From Akkermansia muciniphila (GTDB taxonomy: Bacteria; Verrucomicrobiota; Verrucomicrobiia; Opitutales; Opitutaceae), in NCBI GenBank assembly GCA_945898185.1, contig CAMDHP010000012.1:1-37061 (forward strand): DNA of 37,061 bases, in the 5' to 3' direction. This document shows, one piece after another, positions 1 through 19,371 of the stretch. The position numbers and the translations under genes are program-made. The stretch's first letter is position 1. Each line of letters begins with the position of its first letter. The notes beneath the pieces were generated by a model. The model was not told where the DNA came from. It was given only the letters and a program-made list of their open reading frames with translations, and searched no databases.

Positions 1-1311
1 CTCGCCGACGAGGCCTCGCACGGCGCCGACGACTGGTCGAATCTCGACCCTTATGCGGACGACCTGCCGACCTTCTTCGACGCGATCAAGACCCACCTGC
101 GCAAGAACCAGAACGCGCCCGGCATGTCCGTCGCGCTTAACTACCTTGCCAAACGTTGGGAGCAACCCGAGCCCGACCTCATCGGCGCGATCAAAGAGTG
201 TGGGTTTGACATCCCCGAGACCGAGGACGCCGCGCCGGTTTTCCTCGAATACGAGGGCGACCTTTACTGGGTGAATCGTAATAATCGCGGTCTTTACTTT
301 CTGAATACACGGGAGAAACCGCGCCCCAAGTTCCGCGTGGTGGCGGGCAAGCCGCTTGGCACCGATGATCCCGTGCATGCTGCGCTGGCCGAGGAGCACG
401 CGGCCGATCTGGCCGAGAAAGCGAAACGCGCTGCCGAACAGGCGGAGCGCGAAGCCGAGGCCACAGCCCGCCGCGCCGAACGCGAGGCGCAACGCCTCGC
501 CACCGAGGCTGCGCGTCGCGAACAGCAGGTGGCGGCGCAGGCCGCGCGTGACGCGGCCCGCGAGGCTGCCCGTGCGGCGGCGGCGGCGAAGGCGGCCAAC
601 GCGCCTGCCGGCATAGAGCCCGCTGGGACGGCGGCGCCGGCCACAGGCGACGGCGGATTTACCCCGTCGGCCGAATCAGCCGAAGTCTCGGCGACGGACC
701 AGGCGGCCTTGCCGCAAGGCGAGGCGCTACTCGATGCGATCCGGCCCCAGATGAGGCGCAACCGCAATGGCCCGGGCTACTCGGGCTCGACCACCTACCT
801 GGCCAAAGCCTTTAAGCAGACGGAGGCGGCGTTTGATGCGGCGTTTGCCGCGCTTGATCTCGTGCCGCAGGCGGCGGGAGAGAAGCCGCGACTCGTGATC
901 ATCGGCCTTTATGTGTATTGGGTAACCAAGGACGGGCGCGGGGTGACATGGATAAATGGTCGTCAGGCTTCGGCCAAGGAGTTGGGCGCGACAGGTGCCG
1001 CGACACCGGAAATTCCTGCAACGGCTCCGATCAACGACGCACCAGCCGCTCCGGAAGACACGGGCGGGGGGGCGATCTTCAAAGCGGTGCCCCGGATGCT
1101 GCCGCCAGTCGTCGCGGCTGATGCCGCGGTTCCTGATGTGCCTGAGTCTGAAACCGTCGCGGCTAAAGCTGCGAAGGGCGGGAAGAAACCCGTGAAGGCT
1201 GTTCGCTCGCGCAAGCCGAAGGCGGCGGACGAAGCCCCTGAGCCGGTGAAGCCGCGCGCGAAGAAACGCGTGACCCTGTCCACGGCTGCCGGCAGGCCGG
1301 CGAAAGTCTGA
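1..1311 (+). CDS. Unrecognised protein with duplicated ~80-residue domain (5' partial)
   Basis: The reading frame is open from base 1, so the gene starts outside the window; the ATG at 124 lies inside the first domain copy and is not the start. Two related segments are visible, at 73-315 and 727-966. Shared positions include DAI, R.N.N.PG, YLAK and YWV....RG. Between them lies a long Ala/Glu/Arg-rich stretch (about 370-600) that should form a charged helix or coiled coil, and the C-terminus is Lys/Arg/Pro/Ala-rich like a nucleic-acid-binding tail. I do not recognise the family. A DNA- or RNA-associated role is only an inference from the basic tail; the helical stretch superficially resembles TolA but carries no membrane anchor here. 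Confidence 0.8.
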   Translation, partial: LADEASHGADDWSNLDPYADDLPTFFDAIKTHLRKNQNAPGMSVALNYLAKRWEQPEPDLIGAIKECGFDIPETEDAAPVFLEYEGDLYWVNRNNRGLYFLNTREKPRPKFRVVAGKPLGTDDPVHAALAEEHAADLAEKAKRAAEQAEREAEATARRAEREAQRLATEAARREQQVAAQAARDAAREAARAAAAAKAANAPAGIEPAGTAAPATGDGGFTPSAESAEVSATDQAALPQGEALLDAIRPQMRRNRNGPGYSGSTTYLAKAFKQTEAAFDAAFAALDLVPQAAGEKPRLVIIGLYVYWVTKDGRGVTWINGRQASAKELGATGAATPEIPATAPINDAPAAPEDTGGGAIFKAVPRMLPPVVAADAAVPDVPESETVAAKAAKGGKKPVKAVRSRKPKAADEAPEPVKPRAKKRVTLSTAAGRPAKV

Positions 1312-2021: not shown

Positions 2022-2099
2022 TCGGTTTCATGCTAGTAGTTAACCGCATTAAACTTGCTTGGGCCGTGCGGCAGGCCAACGGTTTTTGCTCTCAAAGCT

Positions 2100-3638
2100 A
2101 TGTCCGACGCTCCTCGCCATCCCTTCCTCCAAGGCCTCAGCAAGCACCGCGGCACTCCGCCCACGGTCATCGTGATTTTTGGTGCTTCCGGCGACCTCAC
2201 CGCGCGCAAACTTATCCCGGCCATCTTCAATCTGGCCTTCGATAATCTTTTGCCGGCGGACTTCTTCCTAGTCGGCTACGGTCGCAAGGCGATCCCCGAC
2301 GAGGAGTTTCGGGGCATTGCGTCCAGCGCTATCAAGGAGTTTTCCCGCCGCGAGCTGAACTCCGACGTCTGGAACCACGTCGCATCCAACACCAGCTATG
2401 TCGCCGGCGGTTACGACGAGCCTGAGGCGTTTCAGCGTCTCGCCGCGCACATAGACGGCTTGGAAAAGAAGCTCGGGCGGGATGTGCAGACGCTTTTCTA
2501 CGTCTCGACCCCTCCCTCCGTCTTTGCTCCCATCCTGCGCAATCTCGGTGCCAGTGGACTCGCCGCGCGCCATCTCGGGAACAGCCTCCACACGAAAGTC
2601 ATCATCGAAAAACCCTTTGGTAAGGATTTTGATTCGGCGGTGGCCTTGAACGGCGTCATCCGCGAGGTGCTTCAGGAGCATCAGGTGTATCGGATTGACC
2701 ACTACCTCGGCAAGGAGACGGTGCAGGATCTTCTGGTGCAGCGCTTCTCCAACTCGATCTTTGAGCCGCTCTGGAACCGCAACTACATTGACCACGTGCA
2801 GATCACCGTCTCCGAGGAAGTCGGTGTCGGCACGCGCGGCGGCTACTACGAACAAAGCGGCGCGCTCCGGGACATGATCCAGAATCACACCATGCAGCTC
2901 GTCGCTCTGACCGCGATGGAGCCTCCCGGGTCGCTCGACGCCGAAGCGGTGCGCAACGAGAAGCTAAAAGTTCTCAAGGCCATCCAACCCCTCGACCTCT
3001 CCCTTGGCGGCGACGTGGTGCGCGCCCAATACGCCTCGGGTATGATCAGCGGCAAGGGCGCCAAAGGCTACCTGGAGGAAGAGGGCATCGCCGCCCAATC
3101 CGCGACCGAAACCTTCGCCGCGATCCGCCTCTCGATCAACAACTGGCGCTGGCAAGGAGTGCCCTTTTACCTCCGCTCCGGCAAACGCATGGCGCGCCGT
3201 GTCACTGAGATCGCGGTGCAGTTCAAGCGCCCGCCCGGCACGCTCTTCGCCGAGGGGGGCCGCTTCGACCTCGCGCCGAACACGCTCTCGTTTCAGATCC
3301 AGCCCGACGAAGGACTTTCGCTCATTCTCAACGGCAAAGTTCCCGGCCTTGAGACCCGCACCCAGCCGGTGAAGATGAACTTTCGCTACAGTGCGACCTA
3401 CGGATCCAACACGCCCGAAGCTTACGAGCGCCTCGTGCTCGACGCGATGATCGGCGACGGCACGCTGTTCATCCGTGGCGACGAGGCCGAGACCTCGTGG
3501 CAACTTTATACCCCCGTGCTCAAGGCCTGGGCGGCGGCGGGCCGTGAAGGCATGGATAGTTATCCGGCGGGTTCTTGGGGGCCACCCGGTGCCGAGGCCT
3601 TGATGGCAAAGGCTGGCCACGTCTGGCGGCAGCCCTAA
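2100..3638 (+). CDS. zwf: Glucose-6-phosphate 1-dehydrogenase
   Basis: The cytosolic enzyme oxidises glucose 6-phosphate to 6-phosphogluconolactone with NAD(P)+, the first step of the oxidative pentose phosphate and Entner-Doudoroff routes. At 512 aa it has full family length. Visible are the dinucleotide-binding GASGDLTARK (28-37), the substrate-binding RIDHYLGKE (198-206, with K205) and DMIQNHTMQ with H263 at the position of the catalytic base. The ATG at 2100 was preferred over the upstream in-frame start at 2055 because the protein then begins shortly before the Rossmann fold, as is usual. It heads a co-directional set with an opcA-like gene and pgl. Confidence 0.97.
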   Translation: MSDAPRHPFLQGLSKHRGTPPTVIVIFGASGDLTARKLIPAIFNLAFDNLLPADFFLVGYGRKAIPDEEFRGIASSAIKEFSRRELNSDVWNHVASNTSYVAGGYDEPEAFQRLAAHIDGLEKKLGRDVQTLFYVSTPPSVFAPILRNLGASGLAARHLGNSLHTKVIIEKPFGKDFDSAVALNGVIREVLQEHQVYRIDHYLGKETVQDLLVQRFSNSIFEPLWNRNYIDHVQITVSEEVGVGTRGGYYEQSGALRDMIQNHTMQLVALTAMEPPGSLDAEAVRNEKLKVLKAIQPLDLSLGGDVVRAQYASGMISGKGAKGYLEEEGIAAQSATETFAAIRLSINNWRWQGVPFYLRSGKRMARRVTEIAVQFKRPPGTLFAEGGRFDLAPNTLSFQIQPDEGLSLILNGKVPGLETRTQPVKMNFRYSATYGSNTPEAYERLVLDAMIGDGTLFIRGDEAETSWQLYTPVLKAWAAAGREGMDSYPAGSWGPPGAEALMAKAGHVWRQP

Positions 3639-3711
3639 GGCGTCTCGGACGCCGCCTAGACCCTGAAACTGAAAAGAAATCCTGAATTAAAAAAATCCTA
3701 AACCCGAGAGC

Positions 3712-3833
3712 CTGAATCCTAAAATGCCGGTGCGGCGGCCTGGAAAAAGCGACCGAGTCTTGGCTCGCTCGCGGGTCATTTCGCTAGGTTCGATTTCGGT
3801 TTAGAATTCAGCCGCCGAAGATTTAGGATTCAG
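3712..3833. repeat. Long-range inverted repeat between zwf and opcA-like gene
   Basis: CTGAATCCTAAA at 3712-3723 and TTTAGGATTCAG at 3822-3833 are perfect 12-base complements about 98 bases apart. The pairing continues outward (GAG/CTC) past one bulged C. Related short units (ATCCTGAATT, ATCCTAAAC, TTTAGAATTCAG) recur inside 3680-3820. This suggests an intergenic repeat element or an RNA processing/attenuation structure. The element is clearly AT-richer than its neighbours. Confidence 0.5.
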
Positions 3834-3844
3834 CTCTCACTTTT

Positions 3845-4834
3845 ATGCCTGAAATTTTCAACGCCCTACCTGGGCAGGAAGTGCCGGTCGGCGGCATTTC
3901 CAAGGCGCTTGCCTGTATGTGGGCGGGCGGCGATGAGCCTGCATCCGGCAAACCGAATGCGGGTGAGTCCGCCAAGGCCATGCAGGTGAATTTCGTGCTT
4001 CACCTTGGCTACTTCACGACCGCTGAGGATGCGGCGCTACAGTTTCAAACTGCGGTTGAGTTTTCCCGCCGCTACCCCTGCCGCGTGGTGGTCCTTTGCC
4101 CGATGCGGAAGGAAGAAGGCGGGCAGGAGTTTCGCGCCAAGATTTACGGGGAATGCACGCCTGGAAAAACGAAGGGCGACATGCGTTGCTGCGAGTTCGT
4201 GATGTTGAGCTATCCGATTGCGAGCCGGCGCTATTTGGAAAACCAAGTGTCGGTCTGCCTCTCGACTGACATCCCGCTCTACTACTGGGCGCACAACTTT
4301 TCATCGAGCGTGCGTCTCAACGATTATCAATACCTCCTCAACCGCTCGAAGCGCGTGCTCTTTGACAGCGCGCTCGCGCCGGCGGGCATGGCCGACTCCG
4401 TCTGGCCGAAGCCCGAAATGTTGCGTGATCTTGCCTATGCACGTTTGCTGCCGGTCCGGCAGGCGATCGGGCAGTTTTTGAGCGGCTTCGCCCCGGCAGC
4501 GATAGTCGGCGGGCTGGCCAGCGTGACGTTGCGGCACGGCACGGCGCATAGCGCCGAGGCGCGGGGTTTGGCCTCTTGGGTGCGCGCCCGGCTGAATGAT
4601 TGCGGAGCGCTTGCAGAGCTGCCGGTCGAGGTAACGGCGGCGGCAGCGCTGCCTGCGCATGATATTGAGCTCAGTTTCTGCTACACGAACGGACAGCACT
4701 TCTCTTGGCGCGGCGACACGGCCAAGGGCTGCGCGCTCTTAAAGGCATCGATCGGTGGAGCGAACTCGGAGCTTTCGATTGCGTTTAATCTTCTGGGGCC
4801 GACGGCGGCGCTGGCAGAAGCGATGTTCTTCTGA
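3845..4834 (+). CDS. OpcA-like glucose-6-phosphate dehydrogenase assembly protein
   Basis: This 329-aa soluble protein resembles the OpcA family, first known from cyanobacteria and actinobacteria as an effector or assembly factor of glucose-6-phosphate dehydrogenase. Family-like stretches are RVVVLCP, RAKIYGEC, a Cys pair in the MRCCEFV region, and DIPLYYWAHN, followed by a segment on returning to a defined residue (KRVLFDSA). Its place between zwf and pgl supports a role in Zwf assembly or redox control. The ATG at 3845 lies just after the inverted repeat at 3712-3833 and has no Shine-Dalgarno motif. Whether it truly activates the neighbouring Zwf cannot be read from sequence. Confidence 0.8.
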   Translation: MPEIFNALPGQEVPVGGISKALACMWAGGDEPASGKPNAGESAKAMQVNFVLHLGYFTTAEDAALQFQTAVEFSRRYPCRVVVLCPMRKEEGGQEFRAKIYGECTPGKTKGDMRCCEFVMLSYPIASRRYLENQVSVCLSTDIPLYYWAHNFSSSVRLNDYQYLLNRSKRVLFDSALAPAGMADSVWPKPEMLRDLAYARLLPVRQAIGQFLSGFAPAAIVGGLASVTLRHGTAHSAEARGLASWVRARLNDCGALAELPVEVTAAAALPAHDIELSFCYTNGQHFSWRGDTAKGCALLKASIGGANSELSIAFNLLGPTAALAEAMFF

Positions 4835-4883
4835 AATCCCGGATATCAAGCGGACACTTCCAAACGAAAAAGATCCCGAACTC

Positions 4884-5615
4884 ATGCGTGAAATCTCCTC
4901 GGATTACGGACGTGTCGTTGTCGGCACCAAAGACGAATTGTTTGCGCAAGCGGTCGCGCTGACCGAGGCGCAGCGACTGCTGTCGCGGCCCGGGCGTGTT
5001 CTTTGGGCGCTCACTGGCGGCAGCACACCGGCGGCGTTTTACCAGTGGTGCGTGACGACGCGCGCGCTGCCGGAGGCGCTGGTGCGGGAGACGCATTTCA
5101 CGGTGAGCGATGAGCGCCACGTGTTGCTCGATAGTGCCGAGAGTAATTTTGGCAACGCCGAGCGCGCCTTGTTCGCTCCGCTGGCGGTGGAGGACGAGCG
5201 GCGACATCCGTGGATGGTCGCCTGGCCGGTCGCCGAGGCGGCGGAGGCGTATCGTAAAACGATGCTTATCCTCGCCGGGCCGGGCCGCGGCTACGACGTG
5301 TGTTTCCTCGGGATGGGCGACGATTGCCACACGGCCTCCCTCTTCCCTGGCACGCCCTTGCTGCATGATGATGGCGGCCTGCTTTTCGGCGGCCAGGAAG
5401 TGCCCGGTAAAGGCTGGCGGCTCACGATTACGCCGACGGGCTTGCTAGCCTGCGGGCTCGTGGTGGTGATGGCGTTGGGTGCTGGTAAAGCTGACGCGCT
5501 GCATCGCGTCATGCGCGGCCCATCGGATCCGCTCATTGTGCCCTCGCAGATTTTGAAAACCTGTGCTGGGCGCGTGGTTTGGCTGGTGGACGAAGCGGCG
5601 GCGGCCCGGCTGTGA
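4884..5615 (+). CDS. pgl: 6-phosphogluconolactonase
   Basis: The enzyme hydrolyses 6-phosphogluconolactone, the product of Zwf. The 243-aa protein is of DevB/Pgl/NagB-fold type: LTGGSTP near residue 43, the SDER motif near 74, LGMGDDCHTASLFPG in the middle and VWLVDEAAA at the end. The usual active-site segment reads GMGxDGHTAS; here Cys replaces the Gly before His. The ATG at 4884 was chosen over one at 4755 that would overlap the opcA-like gene by 80 bases and add unrelated residues. It is the last gene of the zwf set, and the REP-like repeat lies just downstream. Confidence 0.93.
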   Translation: MREISSDYGRVVVGTKDELFAQAVALTEAQRLLSRPGRVLWALTGGSTPAAFYQWCVTTRALPEALVRETHFTVSDERHVLLDSAESNFGNAERALFAPLAVEDERRHPWMVAWPVAEAAEAYRKTMLILAGPGRGYDVCFLGMGDDCHTASLFPGTPLLHDDGGLLFGGQEVPGKGWRLTITPTGLLACGLVVVMALGAGKADALHRVMRGPSDPLIVPSQILKTCAGRVVWLVDEAAAARL

Positions 5616-11268: not shown

Positions 11269-11925
11269 ATGTCCAAGCTTTTCCCCAAGTCGGTTAACAA
11301 ACTGCCGCTTCAAATCCTGATCTTCATCGGACTCACCGCCAGTATCGTGGCGGCCGGCATCACCTATTACGCGACTCCGAAGTATTCGCGCGTAGGCTAC
11401 GCCCCGGTGCAGCCCGTGCCCTTCAACCACGCACTCCACGCCGGCCATCTGGGCATGGATTGCCGCTACTGCCACAGCAACGTCGAAAAGTCCGGCCACT
11501 CCAATGTGCCGACCGCACAGACGTGCATGAACTGCCATAATCAGATCAAGACCGACAGCCCTTTGCTCGCGCCCGTGCGTGAAAGCTATGCTTCGGGAAA
11601 TCCAGTTCCTTGGGTAAAAATACACAAGGCGCCAGACTACGTCTACTTTAACCATTCCGTCCACGTCGCGCGCGGCGTTTCATGCGTCGAATGTCACGGC
11701 AAGATCAACGAGATGGAAGTCGTTCACCACGCCAAGCCTCTCTCCATGGGATGGTGTTTGGAGTGTCATCGCGAACCCGAGAAGTTCGTTCGCGACCCCA
11801 AGCTCGTCACCAATCTTGACTGGAAGCATCCCGGCGGCACGGCCGCTCAAATCGAAGAGGGCAAGAAATTTGTCCACGATTGGAACATTCAACCTCCCCA
11901 AAGTTGCTCCGGTTGCCACCGCTGA
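11269..11925 (+). CDS. actA: Alternative complex III pentahaem cytochrome c subunit ActA
   Basis: ActA is the multihaem periplasmic cytochrome of alternative complex III, passing electrons from the quinol-oxidising core to the mono-haem subunit or oxidase. The 218-aa protein has one N-terminal membrane anchor (about residues 15-37) and five CxxCH haem-binding motifs: CRYCH, CMNCH, CVECH, CLECH and CSGCH. This matches the pentahaem form of the family. It is the first certain gene of a co-directional operon, 31 bases before actB. The ATG at 11269 places the anchor directly after a short basic N-terminus. Confidence 0.95.
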   Translation: MSKLFPKSVNKLPLQILIFIGLTASIVAAGITYYATPKYSRVGYAPVQPVPFNHALHAGHLGMDCRYCHSNVEKSGHSNVPTAQTCMNCHNQIKTDSPLLAPVRESYASGNPVPWVKIHKAPDYVYFNHSVHVARGVSCVECHGKINEMEVVHHAKPLSMGWCLECHREPEKFVRDPKLVTNLDWKHPGGTAAQIEEGKKFVHDWNIQPPQSCSGCHR

Positions 11926-11956
11926 GCCCCGCACCTTCTGATCGCCCTCATCGCCG

Positions 11957-14900
11957 ATGAAACGCAAATTTGACCACTCCGCGCCTGCTAACTCCGAGTC
12001 CCTCGCGACCGGTCCTCGCTACTGGCGCAGTCTCGACGACCTCGCCGCCACGCCTGCCGTGCAAGCCCAGCTCGACCGCGAGTTTCCCGAGGGTGCCGAT
12101 AACTTGAATGGCGTGGATCGCCGCAAGTTTTTCAAGCTCATGGCCGCCTCCTTCGCCCTCGGTGGCGTGGGTCTGGCCGCCGGTTGCCGCCGTCCCGAGG
12201 CGCACATCCTCGCATACGGAAAATCGGTTGAAAACATCGTCCCAGGCCTTCCGCTTTACTACGCGTCCGCGATGCCGATCCGGCGCAATGCCATCCCCGT
12301 GCTGGCCGAGACCCATCAGGGCCGCCCGACCAAACTCGAGGGTAACCCGACCTTTGCTCCCTACGGTGGCGCTACAAACGCACTCGTCCAGGCCTCTGTC
12401 CTCGATCTCTACGATGTGGATCGTTCGACGACCCACACGCTCAAGGGTGCCGCCGCCACAGCCGCCCAGATCAACGACCTGCTCGCCGCTATCGGCACGG
12501 CTGCGAAAGCCGAAAACGGAGCCGGTCTGGTTTTCCTCGCCGAGTCATCTGGCTCGCCCACCCGCGCTCGTCTTGTCTCCAAGCTAAAGCGTGACCTGCC
12601 GAAGGCTATCTGGGCCGAGTATGAGCCCGTCGCCGAAGAGCCGCCCGCCGCCGCCGCGGAAGCCGTTTTCGGTCGCTCCGACGTCAAACCCCTCTATCGC
12701 TTCGCCAAGGCCAAGCGAGTTCTCTCACTCGACGCCGATTTCTTCGCCGCCGAGGCCGGTGCACTCGGCTACGCCCGCGATTTCGCCAAGGGCCGCAAAG
12801 CCCTTAATAAGGACGCCGAGTTAAACCGCCTCTACTCGGTCGAGAGCACTTTTACTATCACCGGCTCCATGGCGGATCACCGCCTCCGCCTCGCGAGCAG
12901 CCACCTGCTGGCCTTCGCCGCCGCTCTCGCCGGTCGTATCACAGGCAAGGCTACCTTCGCCCAGCTCGAGCAGGGTTTGATCTTTAAGGACCAGGAAAAG
13001 TGGCTCGCCGCCTGCGCCGCCGATCTCGTTGCGCACAAAGGTCACGCGCTCGTCGTTGCGGGTGCCCACCTGCCAGCCGAAGTTCATGCGCTCGTTTACG
13101 CGCTCAACATCGCCCTCGACGCAGTGGGTAACACCATCGATTTCGTCGCCGTGCCGTCTCCGGCCACGACGGGCATTACCGACGTCGCCAAATTGCTCGA
13201 TGCCGGTTCGGTCAAGTCTCTCGTTATCCTTGGTGGCAACCCTGCTTACAACGCCCCGGCCGATCTCAATTTTGCCGCCGCGATCAAGAAGGCCGGCCAA
13301 GTCGTGCGCCTCGGTTACCATGTTGACGAGACGTCTGCGGCCGCTCCCTCCGGAGCCCACCTCGCCGCCGCCCACTACCTCGAATCATGGGGCGATGCCC
13401 GCACCGCCGATGGCACCATCGTGCCAGTGCAGCCGATGATTCTCCCGCTCTTCAACGGCGTCACCGAGCTGGAAGTTATCGCCCGTATCCTTGGTGAGGC
13501 CAAAACCGACGGCTACTCGCTCGTTTTTGAAACCATCACCGCCCTCAATGCCCTCGGCGGCGTGGTCGGAGAGAAAGGTTTCCGCCAGTTCTTGCATGAT
13601 GGTCTGCTCGCCGGCTCCGCCTACGCGGTGACCAACGTTACGTTATCCGCCACCGGCCTTGGCCGACTACTGGCCCTCGCGCCTTCGACGCCCGCCGTTG
13701 ATGAAAACAGTCTGGAAGTCCGGTTCACTTTCGACGCGAAGGTGGACGACGGTCGCTTCGCCAATAATGGATGGCTTCAGGAGTGCCCGGAGCCCATGAC
13801 CAAGCTGGCTTGGGACAACGCCTTCCTCGTTTCGCCCCGTCTCGGTAAGAAGCTCGGCATCGAACCCGGCGGCTCGATGATCCAGGTCGCCCGGAAGGAG
13901 ACCGCGAACTTCTCTCGCGGCAAAGAGAAGGCTTTTATTGGCGAACTCGTAATCGGTGGTCGCAAGATTCGCGGCCCCATTCACATCCAGCCCGGCATGT
14001 CGAACTACACCGTCGCCGTGGCCCTCGGTTACGGTCGCACCGTGACCGGCCGGGTCGGCACGGATGTCGGCGTCAACGCTTACGCCCTTCGCGGCACCGA
14101 TGGCCTCGCCGTCGCAACGGGGGCCCAGCTCACCGTCGTCCCCGGTGAATTTGCCGAACTCGCCAACACCCAGGAACACTGGTCAATGGAAGGCCGCGAC
14201 ATCGTGCGCGAGGCCAACCTCGAAGAGTTTAAAAACAACCCGGGTTTCGCCGCCACCATGGGCATGGAGGCGCACACGCCTGCTGTTTACGGCGACTACA
14301 CTCCGGAGCAGTTCGCTAAGCTGACCAACGCTGAGCGCGCCGAGCTCTCATCAAAGCGCGCCCAGACGACGCCGCGCGGTGGCTCGTTGATGGAGAGTCC
14401 CGACTTCTCCGGTCCCAATGCGCACCTCGATGGCGTGCACCAGTGGGGCATGTCCATTGACCTGAATACGTGCATCGGTTGCAGCGCGTGCGTCATCGCC
14501 TGTCAGGCCGAGAACAACATCCCCATCGTCGGCAAGGACCAGGTTCTCCGCGGACGCGAGATGCACTGGATTCGCCTCGATCGCTACTACTCCGATGGCA
14601 ACATCGAGGCCGGCGCTTTCGGCGGCCCCGGCAACGCCCAGCTCCCCGAGGACCCGCAGGTCTCGATGCAGGCCGTCGCTTGCATGCATTGCGAACTCGC
14701 ACCCTGCGAGACCGTGTGCCCCGTGAACGCCACCGTCCACGATCAGGAAGGCCTCAACACGATGGCCTACAATCGGTGTATCGGCACCCGCTACTGCGCG
14801 AACAACTGTCCCTACAAGGTTCGTCGTTTCAATTTCTTCGATTATAACAAGCGTTCGCTCGACGAGCTCTACATGGGGCCGCTTGGTAAGTCCGGCATGC

Positions 14901-15427
14901 CCGAACTGGTCAAGATGGTGAAAAACCCCGATGTGACCGTGCGGATGCGCGGCGTGATGGAGAAGTGCACCTACTGCGTGCAGCGTATCCAGCAGGCCAA
15001 GATCAAGCAAAAGGTTGCCGCCGGCGCTTCCGCCAATGTCGAGATCCCCGACGGTTCCTTCAAGGTCGCCTGCCAACAGGTTTGCCCGGTCGAGGCCATC
15101 GAGTTTGGAAACATCAAGGACGTGAACAGCCGCGTCTCGCAGGCCAAGGCCCGCGAGCAGGATTATCAACTCCTCGGTTACCTGAATATCCGCCCCCGGA
15201 CCACCTTCCTCGGCAAGCTCCGCAACCCGAATCCGGCCATGCCCGACTACGCCAAATTGCCGCTCAGCCGTCAGGAATACGAAAAGAAGAATTATCCCGC
15301 CGGCATGGAACACGGGGGCGGCCACGATGCTCCCCACGGCGAAGGTCGCGCGCCCAAGCACGATTCTCACGGTGAGGCAAAACCTCATGCCCTCCTTGGT
15401 AAAAACTTCTTCGGAGGTAACTCCTAA
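11957..15427 (+). CDS. actB: Alternative complex III iron-sulfur subunit ActB
   Basis: ActB joins a molybdopterin-oxidoreductase-like domain, known from the family to carry no molybdenum cofactor, to a ferredoxin-like domain that relays electrons. At 1156 aa it has family length. A Tat motif with RR at 55-56 (DRRKFFK, then a hydrophobic stretch and AAGC) directs export. The C-terminal domain has Cys sets starting at C839 ([11 protein letters not shown]), C909 (CMHCELAPC), C941 ([11 protein letters not shown]), C1004 (CTYC) and C1039 (CQQVCP), enough for four clusters. The end is His/Gly-rich. Its stop overlaps the actC start by one base. Confidence 0.95.
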
Positions 15428-15429
15428 TG
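15413..15429 (+). promoter_or_regulatory. Ribosome binding site of actC within a mini-hairpin
   Basis: GGAGG at 15413-15417 lies 9 bases before the actC ATG. GGAG (15413-15416) can pair with CTCC at 15421-15424 around a four-base loop. The site lies in the last codons of actB, and a ribosome finishing actB would melt it, which fits translational coupling at the one-base overlap. Confidence 0.5.
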
Positions 15430-16872
15430 GCTCATTCCGCACACACTGAACACGCCGCCCCGGCGATCCTCGCCGAGGTCAACCCGGCGCCCCTTCCGCG
15501 CGCGATTCTCGTTGAGAACAATCGCAGCTTTAATTGGGTCACCGAGAAGATCTGCGGCATCATTGAAGGCCCCACCCCCCGCTGGTGGTGGATATCTTTC
15601 GCTGTCTCCTGCTTCATCGCCAGCTTCACCGTCCTCGGCATCGTTTACCTCGTTTCGACGGGCGTCGGCGTCTGGGGTCACGCGAATCCGGTGAACTGGG
15701 CCTGGGATATCGTAAACTTCGTGTTCTGGATCGGTATCGGCCACGCCGGCACCTTGATCTCTGCGATCTTGTGTCTGCTTCGCCAAAAGTGGCGCACATC
15801 CATTAATCGCGCCGCCGAGGCCATGACGATTTTCGCCGTGGTTTGCGCCGGTATCTTCCCGGTTTTCCACGTTGGCCGTGTCTGGTTCGCGGTCTGGCCC
15901 GGCTACCTTTTCCCGGTGCCCAACGCCAACGCCATCTGGCCGAATTTCCGTTCGCCGCTGGAGTGGGACGTGTTTGCCGTCTCGACCTACGGAACCGTCT
16001 CCGTGCTTTTCTGGTATATCGGCCTCATCCCCGATTTGGCCGTGCTGCGCGACCGTTTCCTTAAAACCGGCAACAAGGTGAAGTCCGCCCTCTACGGCTT
16101 CTTTGCCATGGGCTGGCGCGGCAGTAACCGCCACTGGAGCAACTACGAGATGGCCTACCTCATCTTGGCCGGTATTTCGACTCCCCTCGTGTTATCGGTG
16201 CACACCATCGTTTCGTTCGACTTCGCCGTCTCGCTCATCCCCGGCTGGCACACCACGATCTTTCCCCCCTACTTCGTGGCGGGCGCGATCTTCTCGGGCT
16301 TCGGCATGGTGCTTACGCTCATGCTACCGCTGCGCGCCATCTTCCGTTTGGAGGATCTCATCACGCAGTATCACATAGACTGCATGTGTAAGATCATCTT
16401 GGCCACCGGCACCATCGTCGGCTACGCCTACGGCATCGAGTTCTTCATCGCCTGGTATGGCTCTAATCCCTACGAGGGCTTCGCTTTCATCAACCGTGCC
16501 TTCGGTCACTACGCTTGGGCTTACTGGATCATGATCACCTGTAACGTCATCACGCCCCAGTTCTTCTGGTTCAAGAAGGTGCGCCAGAACATCGTCCTCG
16601 TGTGGATCCTTTCGATCTTTGTGAACGTCGGAATGTGGTTCGAGCGTTTCGTGATCATCGTCACCTCGCTGGCTCGTGATTATTTGCCCAGCTCGTGGGG
16701 TTACTACAGCCCCTCCGCAGTCGAGATTTTCACATTCTTCGGCACTTTCGGCGTCTTCGGCGTCTTGTTCCTCCTCTTCATCCGCTTCCTCCCCATCATG
16801 CCGATGGCCGAGCTCAAAGCCGTCATGCCCCAGGCCGATCCACATGCCGGCCATGGCGATTCCAAACACTAA
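15427..16872 (+). CDS. actC: Alternative complex III membrane subunit ActC (NrfD-like)
   Basis: ActC is the larger quinol-interacting NrfD/PsrC-like integral membrane subunit of the complex. The 481-aa protein has about ten hydrophobic helices, beginning after a soluble N-terminal ~50 residues with the [20 protein letters not shown] segment. A family-typical [19 protein letters not shown] helix follows, where the His lies in a membrane segment implicated in the quinol site of NrfD proteins. A His/Asp-rich tail ends the protein. Start and GGAGG spacing (9 bases) agree. The next gene, actD, starts 24 bases later. Confidence 0.95.
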
Positions 16873-16896
16873 GCCACCCTTTAAAAAACCACACCC

Positions 16897-17430
16897 ATGG
16901 CTGACTCCATTTACGGCTTGATGGCCCGCTTCGACTCCGCATCGGAAATTTTCCACGCGGCCAAGAAAGTGCGCGACGCCGGTTTTAAAAACTGGGACTG
17001 CATCACTCCTTTCCCCATCCATGGATTGGACGGGGCGATGGGTGTTCGTCGTTCGCACGTTCCCAAGTTCTCCCTCGTCGGCGGCCTCGCCGGCTTCACC
17101 ACTGGGATGTCCATGATCTGGTTTACCGGCGCGTTCGACTACCCGTTGATCGTCGGCGGCAAGCCCTACTTCAGCCCGCTTTTCGCGTTCCCGATTGCTT
17201 ACGAGCTCACCATTCTGTTTACCGCGTTCGCGACCATCGCGGGCATGTTCATCCTTAACTGGCTTCCCCAGCACTATCACCCGGTGTTGAAATCAGACCA
17301 AATCACCCGTGGCTTGGACGACACGTTCTACGTCGTTATCGAGGCTCGCGATCCCAAGTTCGATCTCATCCGCGCCAAGGCCCTTCTCACCCAGTCCGGC
17401 GCCAAGGAAATCTCCGAACTGGAGGCCTAA
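16897..17430 (+). CDS. actD: Alternative complex III subunit ActD (DUF3341)
   Basis: ActD is a small membrane subunit of the complex with a cytoplasmic domain and two transmembrane helices. The 177-aa sequence shows the DUF3341 pattern: an N-terminal domain beginning YGLMARFDSASEIFHAAKKV, the segment WDCITPFPIHGLDGAMGVRRS, then two hydrophobic helices (about residues 60-80 and 95-125) separated by a short loop ending in GGKPYFSP. The remainder is soluble. It lies between actC and actE in the conserved order; actE starts four bases after its stop, with the actE ribosome site inside the last codons of actD. Confidence 0.94.
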   Translation: MADSIYGLMARFDSASEIFHAAKKVRDAGFKNWDCITPFPIHGLDGAMGVRRSHVPKFSLVGGLAGFTTGMSMIWFTGAFDYPLIVGGKPYFSPLFAFPIAYELTILFTAFATIAGMFILNWLPQHYHPVLKSDQITRGLDDTFYVVIEARDPKFDLIRAKALLTQSGAKEISELEA

Positions 17431-17434
17431 GACC

Positions 17435-18082
17435 ATGCGCTACGCCTATCTCGTTCTCTTCTTTTTCCTCGTCACCGCGATCTCGGTGTTGGGCTTCCGT
17501 GGTTCAACGACCACCCGCCCTCCGCTCGAGATTTTCCCGGACATGGATCATCAGGCAAAATACAAGCCCCAGGCCGAGTCCGCGTTCTTCGCGGATAAAC
17601 GCACCGACCGCCCTTCTCCGGCGGGTTCGGTTGCGTTTGGGCGCACTGCGATCCAATCGGACGGCAACTTTCTCGCCGCCGACGATCATATGTATCGCGG
17701 CACGCAGGCAGACGGCACCTACGCCCGCGGTTTCCCGTCCTCGATCACCGTCGACGGCAAACTTCTCGAGCGCGGCCAGCTCAAATACACCATCTACTGC
17801 GCGCCTTGCCACGGTGCGATCGGCGATGGCAACGGCATCACCAAGCAGTATGGCATGGGCGCTACGCCGACTTATCACGATGAGCGGCTCCGCAATATTC
17901 CCGAGGGCGACATTTACCACACTATCACCGCCGGGAAAAACAACATGCTGTCCTACGCTGATAAACTCGAGCCTGCCGATCGCTGGGCCGTCGTCGCCTA
18001 CGTGCGCGCCCTCCAGCGCGCGCAGACCGGCACCGTCGCCGACGTTCCCTCCTCCCATAAATCCGAGCTTGGTCTGAAATGA
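17435..18082 (+). CDS. actE: Alternative complex III mono-haem cytochrome c subunit ActE
   Basis: ActE is the mono-haem cytochrome subunit. The 215-aa protein starts with a signal or lipoprotein-like hydrophobic segment (LVLFFFLVTAISVL). The family stretch PLEIFPDMDHQ.K..PQ comes next, and then one haem site CAPCH (C122, C125, H126) with a likely Met ligand in NNMLSY. The frame is open upstream to 17309, but the ATG at 17435 is 9 bases after GGAGG (17421-17425) and begins the signal segment, which decides the start. Its stop overlaps actF by four bases (ATGA). Confidence 0.95.
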   Translation: MRYAYLVLFFFLVTAISVLGFRGSTTTRPPLEIFPDMDHQAKYKPQAESAFFADKRTDRPSPAGSVAFGRTAIQSDGNFLAADDHMYRGTQADGTYARGFPSSITVDGKLLERGQLKYTIYCAPCHGAIGDGNGITKQYGMGATPTYHDERLRNIPEGDIYHTITAGKNNMLSYADKLEPADRWAVVAYVRALQRAQTGTVADVPSSHKSELGLK

Positions 18083-19371
18083 GCACCCGCGCCGCCACTA
18101 TCTCCCCCTCCGCCGTCAGCGCCTCCGCGCCCGTCTCTTCTTTGAGCGGAGCCGCCACCAAGGCGCTGACCCTCGGCGTTATCGGCCTCGTCGCCACCGC
18201 TGCCGGCCTAGCCGTTTCGAGCGGCAAGGCCGTCGCCTTTTCTTATCTTACGGGTATCGTCTTCTGGATCGGCATCGCCCTCGGTGCGCTGTTCCTCGTG
18301 ATGATCCACCACGTCTTCGATGCCGGCTGGTCCACGTTGTTGCGCCGCCAATTCGAAAACTGGCTCGCCTGCCTTCCTTGGCTCGCGTTGCTCTTCGTGC
18401 CCTTGATCGCCTCCGCGTTTTTCGCCCCCGGCATGATCTGGAAGTGGACCAACCCCTCTTACGATCTCGCCCAGGTCGGCGGTCACGGCACGGTCGCCCA
18501 AGACGTCCTCTGGGTAAAAAAATCCGGCCTTCTTAGCACGACGTCGCTGGTGATCGCGAGCATCGTCGGCTTCGCCGGCTGGAGCCTCCTCGCCAACCGT
18601 TTCCGGGCCCATTCCTTCGCTCAGGATACCGACGGCAATATCTCCCATACCCACGCCAGCCGGTTCTGGACCGCGGTTGGGCTGCCCTTCACCGCCCTGT
18701 CGATGACGCTCTGTATCATTCTCTGGGTCAAGGCCCTCGACTACCACTGGTATTCCACCATGTATGGTGTCTGGTTTTTCGCCGGGTGCGTGCGTGGCGC
18801 CCTCTCCGTGGGAATGATCATCACAGTCTGGCTCTGGAATCGCGGCGACTACAAGGGCATCCTGAACAACAATCACATGCACTCGCATGGTATGCTGATG
18901 TTCGCCTTCACCGTTTTCTGGGCCTACATCACGTTTTCCCAGTATTTTCTGATCTACATGGCGAACATACCCGAAGAAACCTTCTGGTACAGCCTTCGCG
19001 AGATCAATAACAACGGCCACTTCAACACCTGGGGCTACGTTGGTTTCTTCCTCCTTTTCGGCCACTTCTTCGCCCCCTTCCTGACCCTCATCCATTACCC
19101 GGTGAAGCTCTCGAAGATTTGGATGCCGCGCATCGCCGCGTTTATCGCCTTCGTCTTCCTCGTGGACGTCACTTACAACGTGATGCCCTCGCTCAAGAAG
19201 ATCACCGGTGATGCCTATCCCTTCACCAGCATCAACCTGCTCTGGATCGCCACTTCTGTGGTCGGTGTCGGCGGCGTTTGCGTGTGGGCCTATTTGAACA
19301 GTTTCTCCAAGACCAAACTCATCCCGATCCGCGATCCGCGTATCGGGGAATCCCTCACCCACCATGAGTGA
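18079..19371 (+). CDS. actF: Alternative complex III membrane subunit ActF (NrfD-like)
   Basis: ActF is the second NrfD-like integral membrane subunit, paired with ActC. The 430-aa protein has about ten transmembrane helices after a short Ser/Ala-rich N-terminus. Family features include LFLVMIHHVFDAGWSTLLRR near the start, NNHMHSHGMLMFAFTVFWAY, and FSQYFLIYMANIPEET in the second half. The reading frame overlaps actE by four bases and the next gene by eight, indicating tight coupling. It completes the six core act genes in their usual A-F order. Confidence 0.95.
   Translation: MSTRAATISPSAVSASAPVSSLSGAATKALTLGVIGLVATAAGLAVSSGKAVAFSYLTGIVFWIGIALGALFLVMIHHVFDAGWSTLLRRQFENWLACLPWLALLFVPLIASAFFAPGMIWKWTNPSYDLAQVGGHGTVAQDVLWVKKSGLLSTTSLVIASIVGFAGWSLLANRFRAHSFAQDTDGNISHTHASRFWTAVGLPFTALSMTLCIILWVKALDYHWYSTMYGVWFFAGCVRGALSVGMIITVWLWNRGDYKGILNNNHMHSHGMLMFAFTVFWAYITFSQYFLIYMANIPEETFWYSLREINNNGHFNTWGYVGFFLLFGHFFAPFLTLIHYPVKLSKIWMPRIAAFIAFVFLVDVTYNVMPSLKKITGDAYPFTSINLLWIATSVVGVGGVCVWAYLNSFSKTKLIPIRDPRIGESLTHHE

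Follow-up and report, generated by a model that had tools for sequence, protein, structure and literature searches.

A repeat protein of the Opitutaceae that joins a DUF4177-like domain to two or three predicted winged-helix units

The stretch of DNA analysed here, a window of 37,061 nucleotides, opens inside a gene. On the + strand, frame 1 reads without interruption from the first base to a stop codon at 1309-1311 and holds 436 codons without a start, so that positions 1-1311 are the 3' part of a gene that the contig edge truncates. A search with the N-terminal domain of relatives located the beginning of this gene on a different contig of the genome (G000:C132:3112-3236; L175, L176), where 41 residues of the domain are followed by the contig end. 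The upstream part that was missing from the first reading of the sequence is thus recovered in part, and the assembly break falls within the gene, leaving two pieces on contigs C12 (the window) and C132. On visual inspection, C132 carries, upstream of this start, a gene similar to the one upstream of the orthologue in IMCC26134, and comparison with this orthologue suggests that about 90 codons are unread between the two pieces. Full-length proteins of 19 relatives range from 471 to 738 amino acids. The next gene is yraN (UPF0102, E 1.8e-19; 1410-2021), followed at 2055-5615 by genes that seem to resemble those of glucose-6-phosphate dehydrogenase, OpcA, and 6-phosphogluconolactonase. Further along, the region 11269-19371 is presumably an alternative complex III or respiratory cluster that includes multihaem and iron-sulfur subunits.

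The protein piece encoded by the window begins with the end of an acidic linker (1-66), whose mean net charge in 65 relatives is -14.2. Two units of about 84 residues follow in frame 1, D1 at 67-318 and D2 at 721-969, with borders placed by an HMM built here from the family; the sequence-only reading had placed two diverged copies at 73-315 and 727-966. The two units are true repeats: they are 30% identical across 82 aligned columns (BLASTP E 7e-14), and none of 2000 shuffles reached their local score of 113, the shuffled scores averaging 23.5 (sd 4.3) with a maximum of 53, so that a chance repeat is ruled out. The N.N.PG turn and the YLAK and YWV motifs singled out earlier occur in both copies. 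Between the units, the stretch at about 355-588 has the composition expected of the Ala/Glu/Arg helix first proposed there (31 A, 12 E, and 11 R in 78 residues), and the model of the IMCC26134 orthologue has a single long helix at the equivalent place (residues 254-330, pLDDT 90-98 over most of it). After D2, the linker contains an IF[KR]AVP motif that, with the residues next to it (1075-1104), is kept in 13 of 78 rows; this linker is predicted to be disordered and the motif could be a partner-binding peptide. The chain ends in a Lys/Arg/Pro-rich tail (1138-1308), predicted to be disordered from the pLDDT of the orthologue, and the segment after D2 carries a net charge of +7 over 113 residues, as the description of a Lys/Pro-rich end had implied.

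A third unit, D3, which most relatives carry before the tail, is missing from the window. Profile searches with the units found relatives that are mostly three-unit proteins, their layout being N-domain, acidic linker, D1, linker, D2, linker, usually D3, and tail; D1 and D3 are themselves related (profile comparison probability 99.7). Three units were present in 16 of the 21 proteins of a first set and two in the other five. A larger set of 129 stretches encoding a relative was reduced to the best 80; among these 80 loci, 72 open reading frames were uncut (65 with three units, seven with two) and eight were cut by a contig end. Likewise, 28 of 30 gene-bearing genomes drawn from the phylum gave three matches, and two gave two (G010 and the window's own genome, G000). 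Two units are therefore rejected as the usual state, and the term "duplicated", accurate for the window, does not describe most relatives, in which the unit is usually triplicated. In a tree of D1 plus D2 built from the window together with 74 of the 80 loci (75 rows in all; six loci with a truncated 3' end were omitted), the window groups with L054 and L055, all two-unit proteins, with support of 100/99. The two-unit label needs five changes on this tree, at least four of them by well-supported branches. If every change were a loss, a direction suggested by the three-unit majority, D3 would have disappeared on four or five occasions.

The gene was found throughout this work in the window's own GTDB family, the Opitutaceae. 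A protein search over 38 genomes, 25 of them from this family, returned it in 24, every one a member of the family. In a draw of 387 genomes across the phylum, the units were detected in 30 of 37 genomes of the family and in none of the 350 others, and in a draw of 177 genomes from the order they were detected in 14 genomes of the family. The order draw also gave a single match beyond the family (G469; E 6.4e-4, 43 columns, internal stop), which was attributed to chance. Record titles of the best 80 of 129 loci mostly read Opitutaceae, Opitutae, Opitutus, or plain Verrucomicrobia. Neither the phage nor the plasmid collection gave a match to D1 alone at E <= 0.1 by tblastn, and an origin from such elements was set aside; with PHROGs, no match was obtained at E <= 0.1 for three units queried, and the full protein had one weak match, in a linker (E 0.011). 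Similarly, PADLOC runs on two proteins gave no hit at E <= 0.01, and a known defence gene was rejected. The protein is so far unnamed in the family libraries searched and restricted to the Opitutaceae in the draws made. A literature search, with subscription journals mostly outside its reach, returned nothing joining Opitutaceae to a winged helix, or DUF4177 to a winged helix or to Opitutus terrae.

Gene neighbourhoods were counted within 4 kb at the best 80 of 129 loci, of which 62 extended for 3 kb on the upstream side and 58 on the downstream side. Upstream neighbours were a BD-FAE-like hydrolase gene on the same strand (31/80) and an RluB-like gene on the other strand (26/80); genes for a molybdopterin oxidoreductase (16/80) and a TonB-dependent receptor (15/80) also occurred within 4 kb, and an ACT-domain gene lay downstream on the other strand at 12 loci. 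The yraN, zwf, and pgl genes of the window were each found at none of the 80 loci within this distance. Neighbours differ between clades and none is constant, so operon logic was abandoned as a guide; it names no pathway.

The fold of the unit was addressed by structure prediction. The AlphaFold2 model of D1 from the window (64-339), run together with 83 other units, has a pLDDT of 90.8 and a pTM of 0.80, and comprises helix 2-9, strand 21-24, helices 25-31 and 36-45, and strands 61-63, 66-72, and 78-84. This is the order H1-S1-H2-H3-S2-wing-S3. The same elements are predicted in D1 (155-235) and D2 (373-454) of the near-identical IMCC26134 orthologue; the outcome that would have told against the sequence-only reading, different predicted folds for the two segments, was thus looked for and not seen. 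The whole-chain model of this orthologue (588 aa, 36 rows, mean pLDDT 72.4, pTM 0.31) further predicts a beta-alpha-beta-beta N-domain (4-56), while the tail and part of the linker before D2 fall under pLDDT 50. The order of elements, predicted with high confidence, is that of a winged helix.

Searches with the models were less telling. Foldseek found nothing significant for the unit in the PDB (best E 0.064, a PUR repeat), its top rows being PUR repeats and Ragulator/longin-like chains, with no winged helices among them; the full model (best E 0.14) and a search against viral models (best E 0.067) gave no more. A slower structure aligner that re-scores the Foldseek list ranked RctB first for the unit (Z 5.6, rmsd 3.9, 81 aligned), then UFL1/DDRGK1 (Z 5.3, rmsd 2.8, 61 aligned), with many MarR, Z-alpha, and ScpB chains in lower rows together with PAS and CorC-type chains. 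With the full model, the first rows were long helices; D1 matched RctB (Z 5.2, rmsd 3.5, 77 aligned) and MarR-type chains, and D2 matched Z-alpha with Z-RNA (Z 5.0, rmsd 2.7, 63 aligned), SlyA, and ScpB. We take the RctB, UFL1/DDRGK1, MarR, Z-alpha, SlyA, and ScpB matches to be winged helices, and since the tool itself calls Z values of 5-6 common, these values would indicate a fold class at most.

Searches at the level of sequence placed the units in no known family. PDB sequences gave a best E of 0.081, and neither Pfam nor NCBIfam yielded a convincing match; 19 Pfam families were touched by any of the 84 units at E <= 1, with GntR, ArsR, and MarR absent from them. One isolated weak name, DUF3606 (6/84 units, best E 0.00052), was dismissed. 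In single profile-profile comparisons, GntR (P 0.0014 over 48 columns, unit positions 3-50, hhalign probability 17.3%) and ArsR (P 0.0017 over 46 columns, unit positions 23-76, 15.6%) were aligned, and MarR (P 0.36, 0.2%) and ScpB (P 0.39, 0.1-0.2%) gave nothing. These comparisons show a weak, in-register similarity of the helix-turn-helix core to two of the four winged-helix families compared, which is not enough to place the units in any of them. Compared with other members of the superfamily (GntR, ArsR, MarR, and others), with which they share the predicted order of elements and these weakly aligned cores, the units have no family match and an H3 poor in basic residues, and two or three copies of them follow a DUF4177-like domain in one protein.

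Among the profiles compared, IF2_N (PF04760) gave the strongest result, with P 2.1e-4 over 26 columns spanning H2-turn-H3 and a real score of 23.6 that exceeded the maximum of 200 column shuffles (18.8; GntR 21.0, ArsR 20.9). Weak IF2_N matches were also obtained for 9 of the 84 units at E <= 1, and the IF-2 of G010 (L185, L194) likewise carries two IF2_N copies in one 896-residue frame. These similarities raise the idea of a translation or ribosome-associated factor whose core would be distantly related to IF2_N and which would act on ribosomes or RNA, and the best structure rows of the N-domain, which include ribosomal protein eS24 (slower aligner, Z 5.5, rmsd 2.8, 55 aligned) and an archaeal RNA ligase (Foldseek E 0.46), are consistent with it. 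However, the hhalign probability is only 45.7%, over one helix-turn-helix; the best IF2_N match has an E of 0.017, one match scored 14.1 bits against a cut-off of 25.3, and the unit, with its 84 residues and a wing, is three times as long. Such a factor is accordingly regarded as improbable.

Conservation and charge set the units apart from one another. G47, W69, and N81 are kept in at least 97% of D1, D2, and D3 sequences, and R13, N15, G20, S22, and L28 in at least 96% of D1 and D2. Mean net charge is -3.6 for D1 (n=80), +3.0 for D2 (n=77), and +0.7 for D3 (n=69). Basic residues that are conserved map to the end of H1, the loop that follows, H2, and the wing, mainly in D2, where Lys or Arg occupies positions 9, 13, 14, 16, 17, 30, 33, 57, and 75 in 80-100% of 77 sequences. 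In classical winged helices, helix 3 reads DNA and is basic. The basic recognition helix of DNA-reading regulators was found in none of D1, D2, and D3: along H3 (36-45), the top share of Lys or Arg at any position is 47% in D1 (n=80), 22% in D2 (n=77), and 2% in D3 (n=68), every D1 and D2 has an acidic residue at position 36, and position 38 is acidic in 100, 77, and 73% of D1, D2, and D3, respectively. An H3 with so few basic residues makes classical operator reading unlikely. The sequence-only reading had suggested a small DNA- or RNA-binding fold, of which the fold is upheld as a predicted winged helix, while binding is a conjecture against which this H3 and a net acidic D1 count. A sequence-specific transcription regulator with several winged helices, which the order of elements and the GntR and ArsR cores in register would suit, is thus very improbable, the more so as no ligand-binding or dimer domain was recognised and no constant neighbour gene is there to be regulated.

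D1 is the most constrained unit: at 80% identity, 80 D1 sequences collapse into 14 groups, against 46 groups for 77 D2 and 42 for 68 D3, the last of these units being dispensable. Mean column identity reaches 76% in D1 (21 rows) and 81% in the N-domain, the latter figure coming from a different set of 35 rows. Winged helices often bind protein, and those of UFL1/DDRGK1 and ScpB have protein-binding roles. That the most constrained unit is acidic, that H3 holds few basic residues, and that UFL1/DDRGK1 (Z 5.3) and ScpB (Z 4.1, rmsd 3.7, 65 aligned) are among the structure matches would all fit a pure protein scaffold, in which the winged helices bind proteins only and the basic tail is incidental. 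Both proteins nonetheless differ from the present one in architecture, the ScpB profile comparison was null, and the Z values are too low for a claim of kinship. The nine basic positions kept in D2 and a tail averaging 29% Lys plus Arg in 65 relatives also argue against a scaffold of this kind, which we consider a real but rather unlikely alternative.

The N-domain itself begins with M-x-x-W-E-Y-K in 35 of 35 aligned rows and resembles DUF4177 (PF13783) in sequence. At E <= 0.1, the DUF4177 profile hits 28 proteins out of 36, a set that includes the window piece, which lacks the domain; the best match (E 3.5e-5) may lie near the Pfam cut-off of 25 bits, against which one protein scored 21.7 with its first 246 residues and 20.1 as a whole. 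PDB sequences gave a best E of 1.9. Kinship between the units and the N-domain was rejected (profile comparison P 0.32, probability 0.2). DUF4177, as in YjzH of B. subtilis, is here fused to winged helices. A search of the phylum draw with the N-domain recovered the 30 genomes in which the units had been detected; beyond the family it gave two small separate open reading frames of 95 and 79 residues (L177, L178), possible kin of the fused domain in other families of the phylum. YjzH, a small DUF4177 protein, figures in the RNA-binding proteome of B. subtilis (PMC12456014), and this listing may serve as a lead.

The unlike charge and constraint of the units suggest a tether. We tentatively favour, at somewhat less than an even chance, a tethering protein of the Opitutaceae made of a DUF4177-like N-domain, an acidic linker, two or three winged-helix units, and a basic tail, in which D2 and the tail would hold nucleic acid, while D1 and the N-domain, which are under the strongest constraint, would bind fixed protein partners. 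The grip on nucleic acid would come from the R-x-N-x-x-G-P-G-x-S loop and the wing together with the end of H1, whose basic residues are conserved; as the recognition helix would take no part, little sequence specificity would be expected. Flexible or helical linkers could let one molecule bridge nucleic acid and partners, and D3 might add grip and be open to loss. Repeat homology, the winged-helix order, the aligner rows, the GntR and ArsR cores, the basic positions of D2, the constraint on D1, and the YjzH listing were counted in favour of a tether; the acidic start of H3, the acidic D1, the Foldseek null, the low Z values and hhalign probabilities, and neighbours that name no pathway were counted against it. 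A more specific proposal appears doubtful: a modular chaperone of nucleic acid confined to this lineage, or a factor associated with the nucleoid or the ribosome, in which a new winged-helix family would have been triplicated and fused to DUF4177, gripping by the loop after H1 and the wing in place of H3, with the first unit now binding partners.

Known folds are brought together here in a new, family-restricted combination. A conserved protein of the family is thereby given a predicted fold, a full architecture, and a range, and the orphan DUF4177 is tied to winged helices; the significance is otherwise modest. That 30 of the 37 Opitutaceae genomes sampled carry the gene points to a role worth experiment. 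Among the records, two (L062 and L063) are titled Akkermansia muciniphila and have their gene inside the tree group of the window, so that these bins may be mislabelled, and two different copies of the gene (L067 and L068) occur in one metagenome-assembled genome (CANIWJ01; G002, 7% contamination), perhaps from mixed strains.
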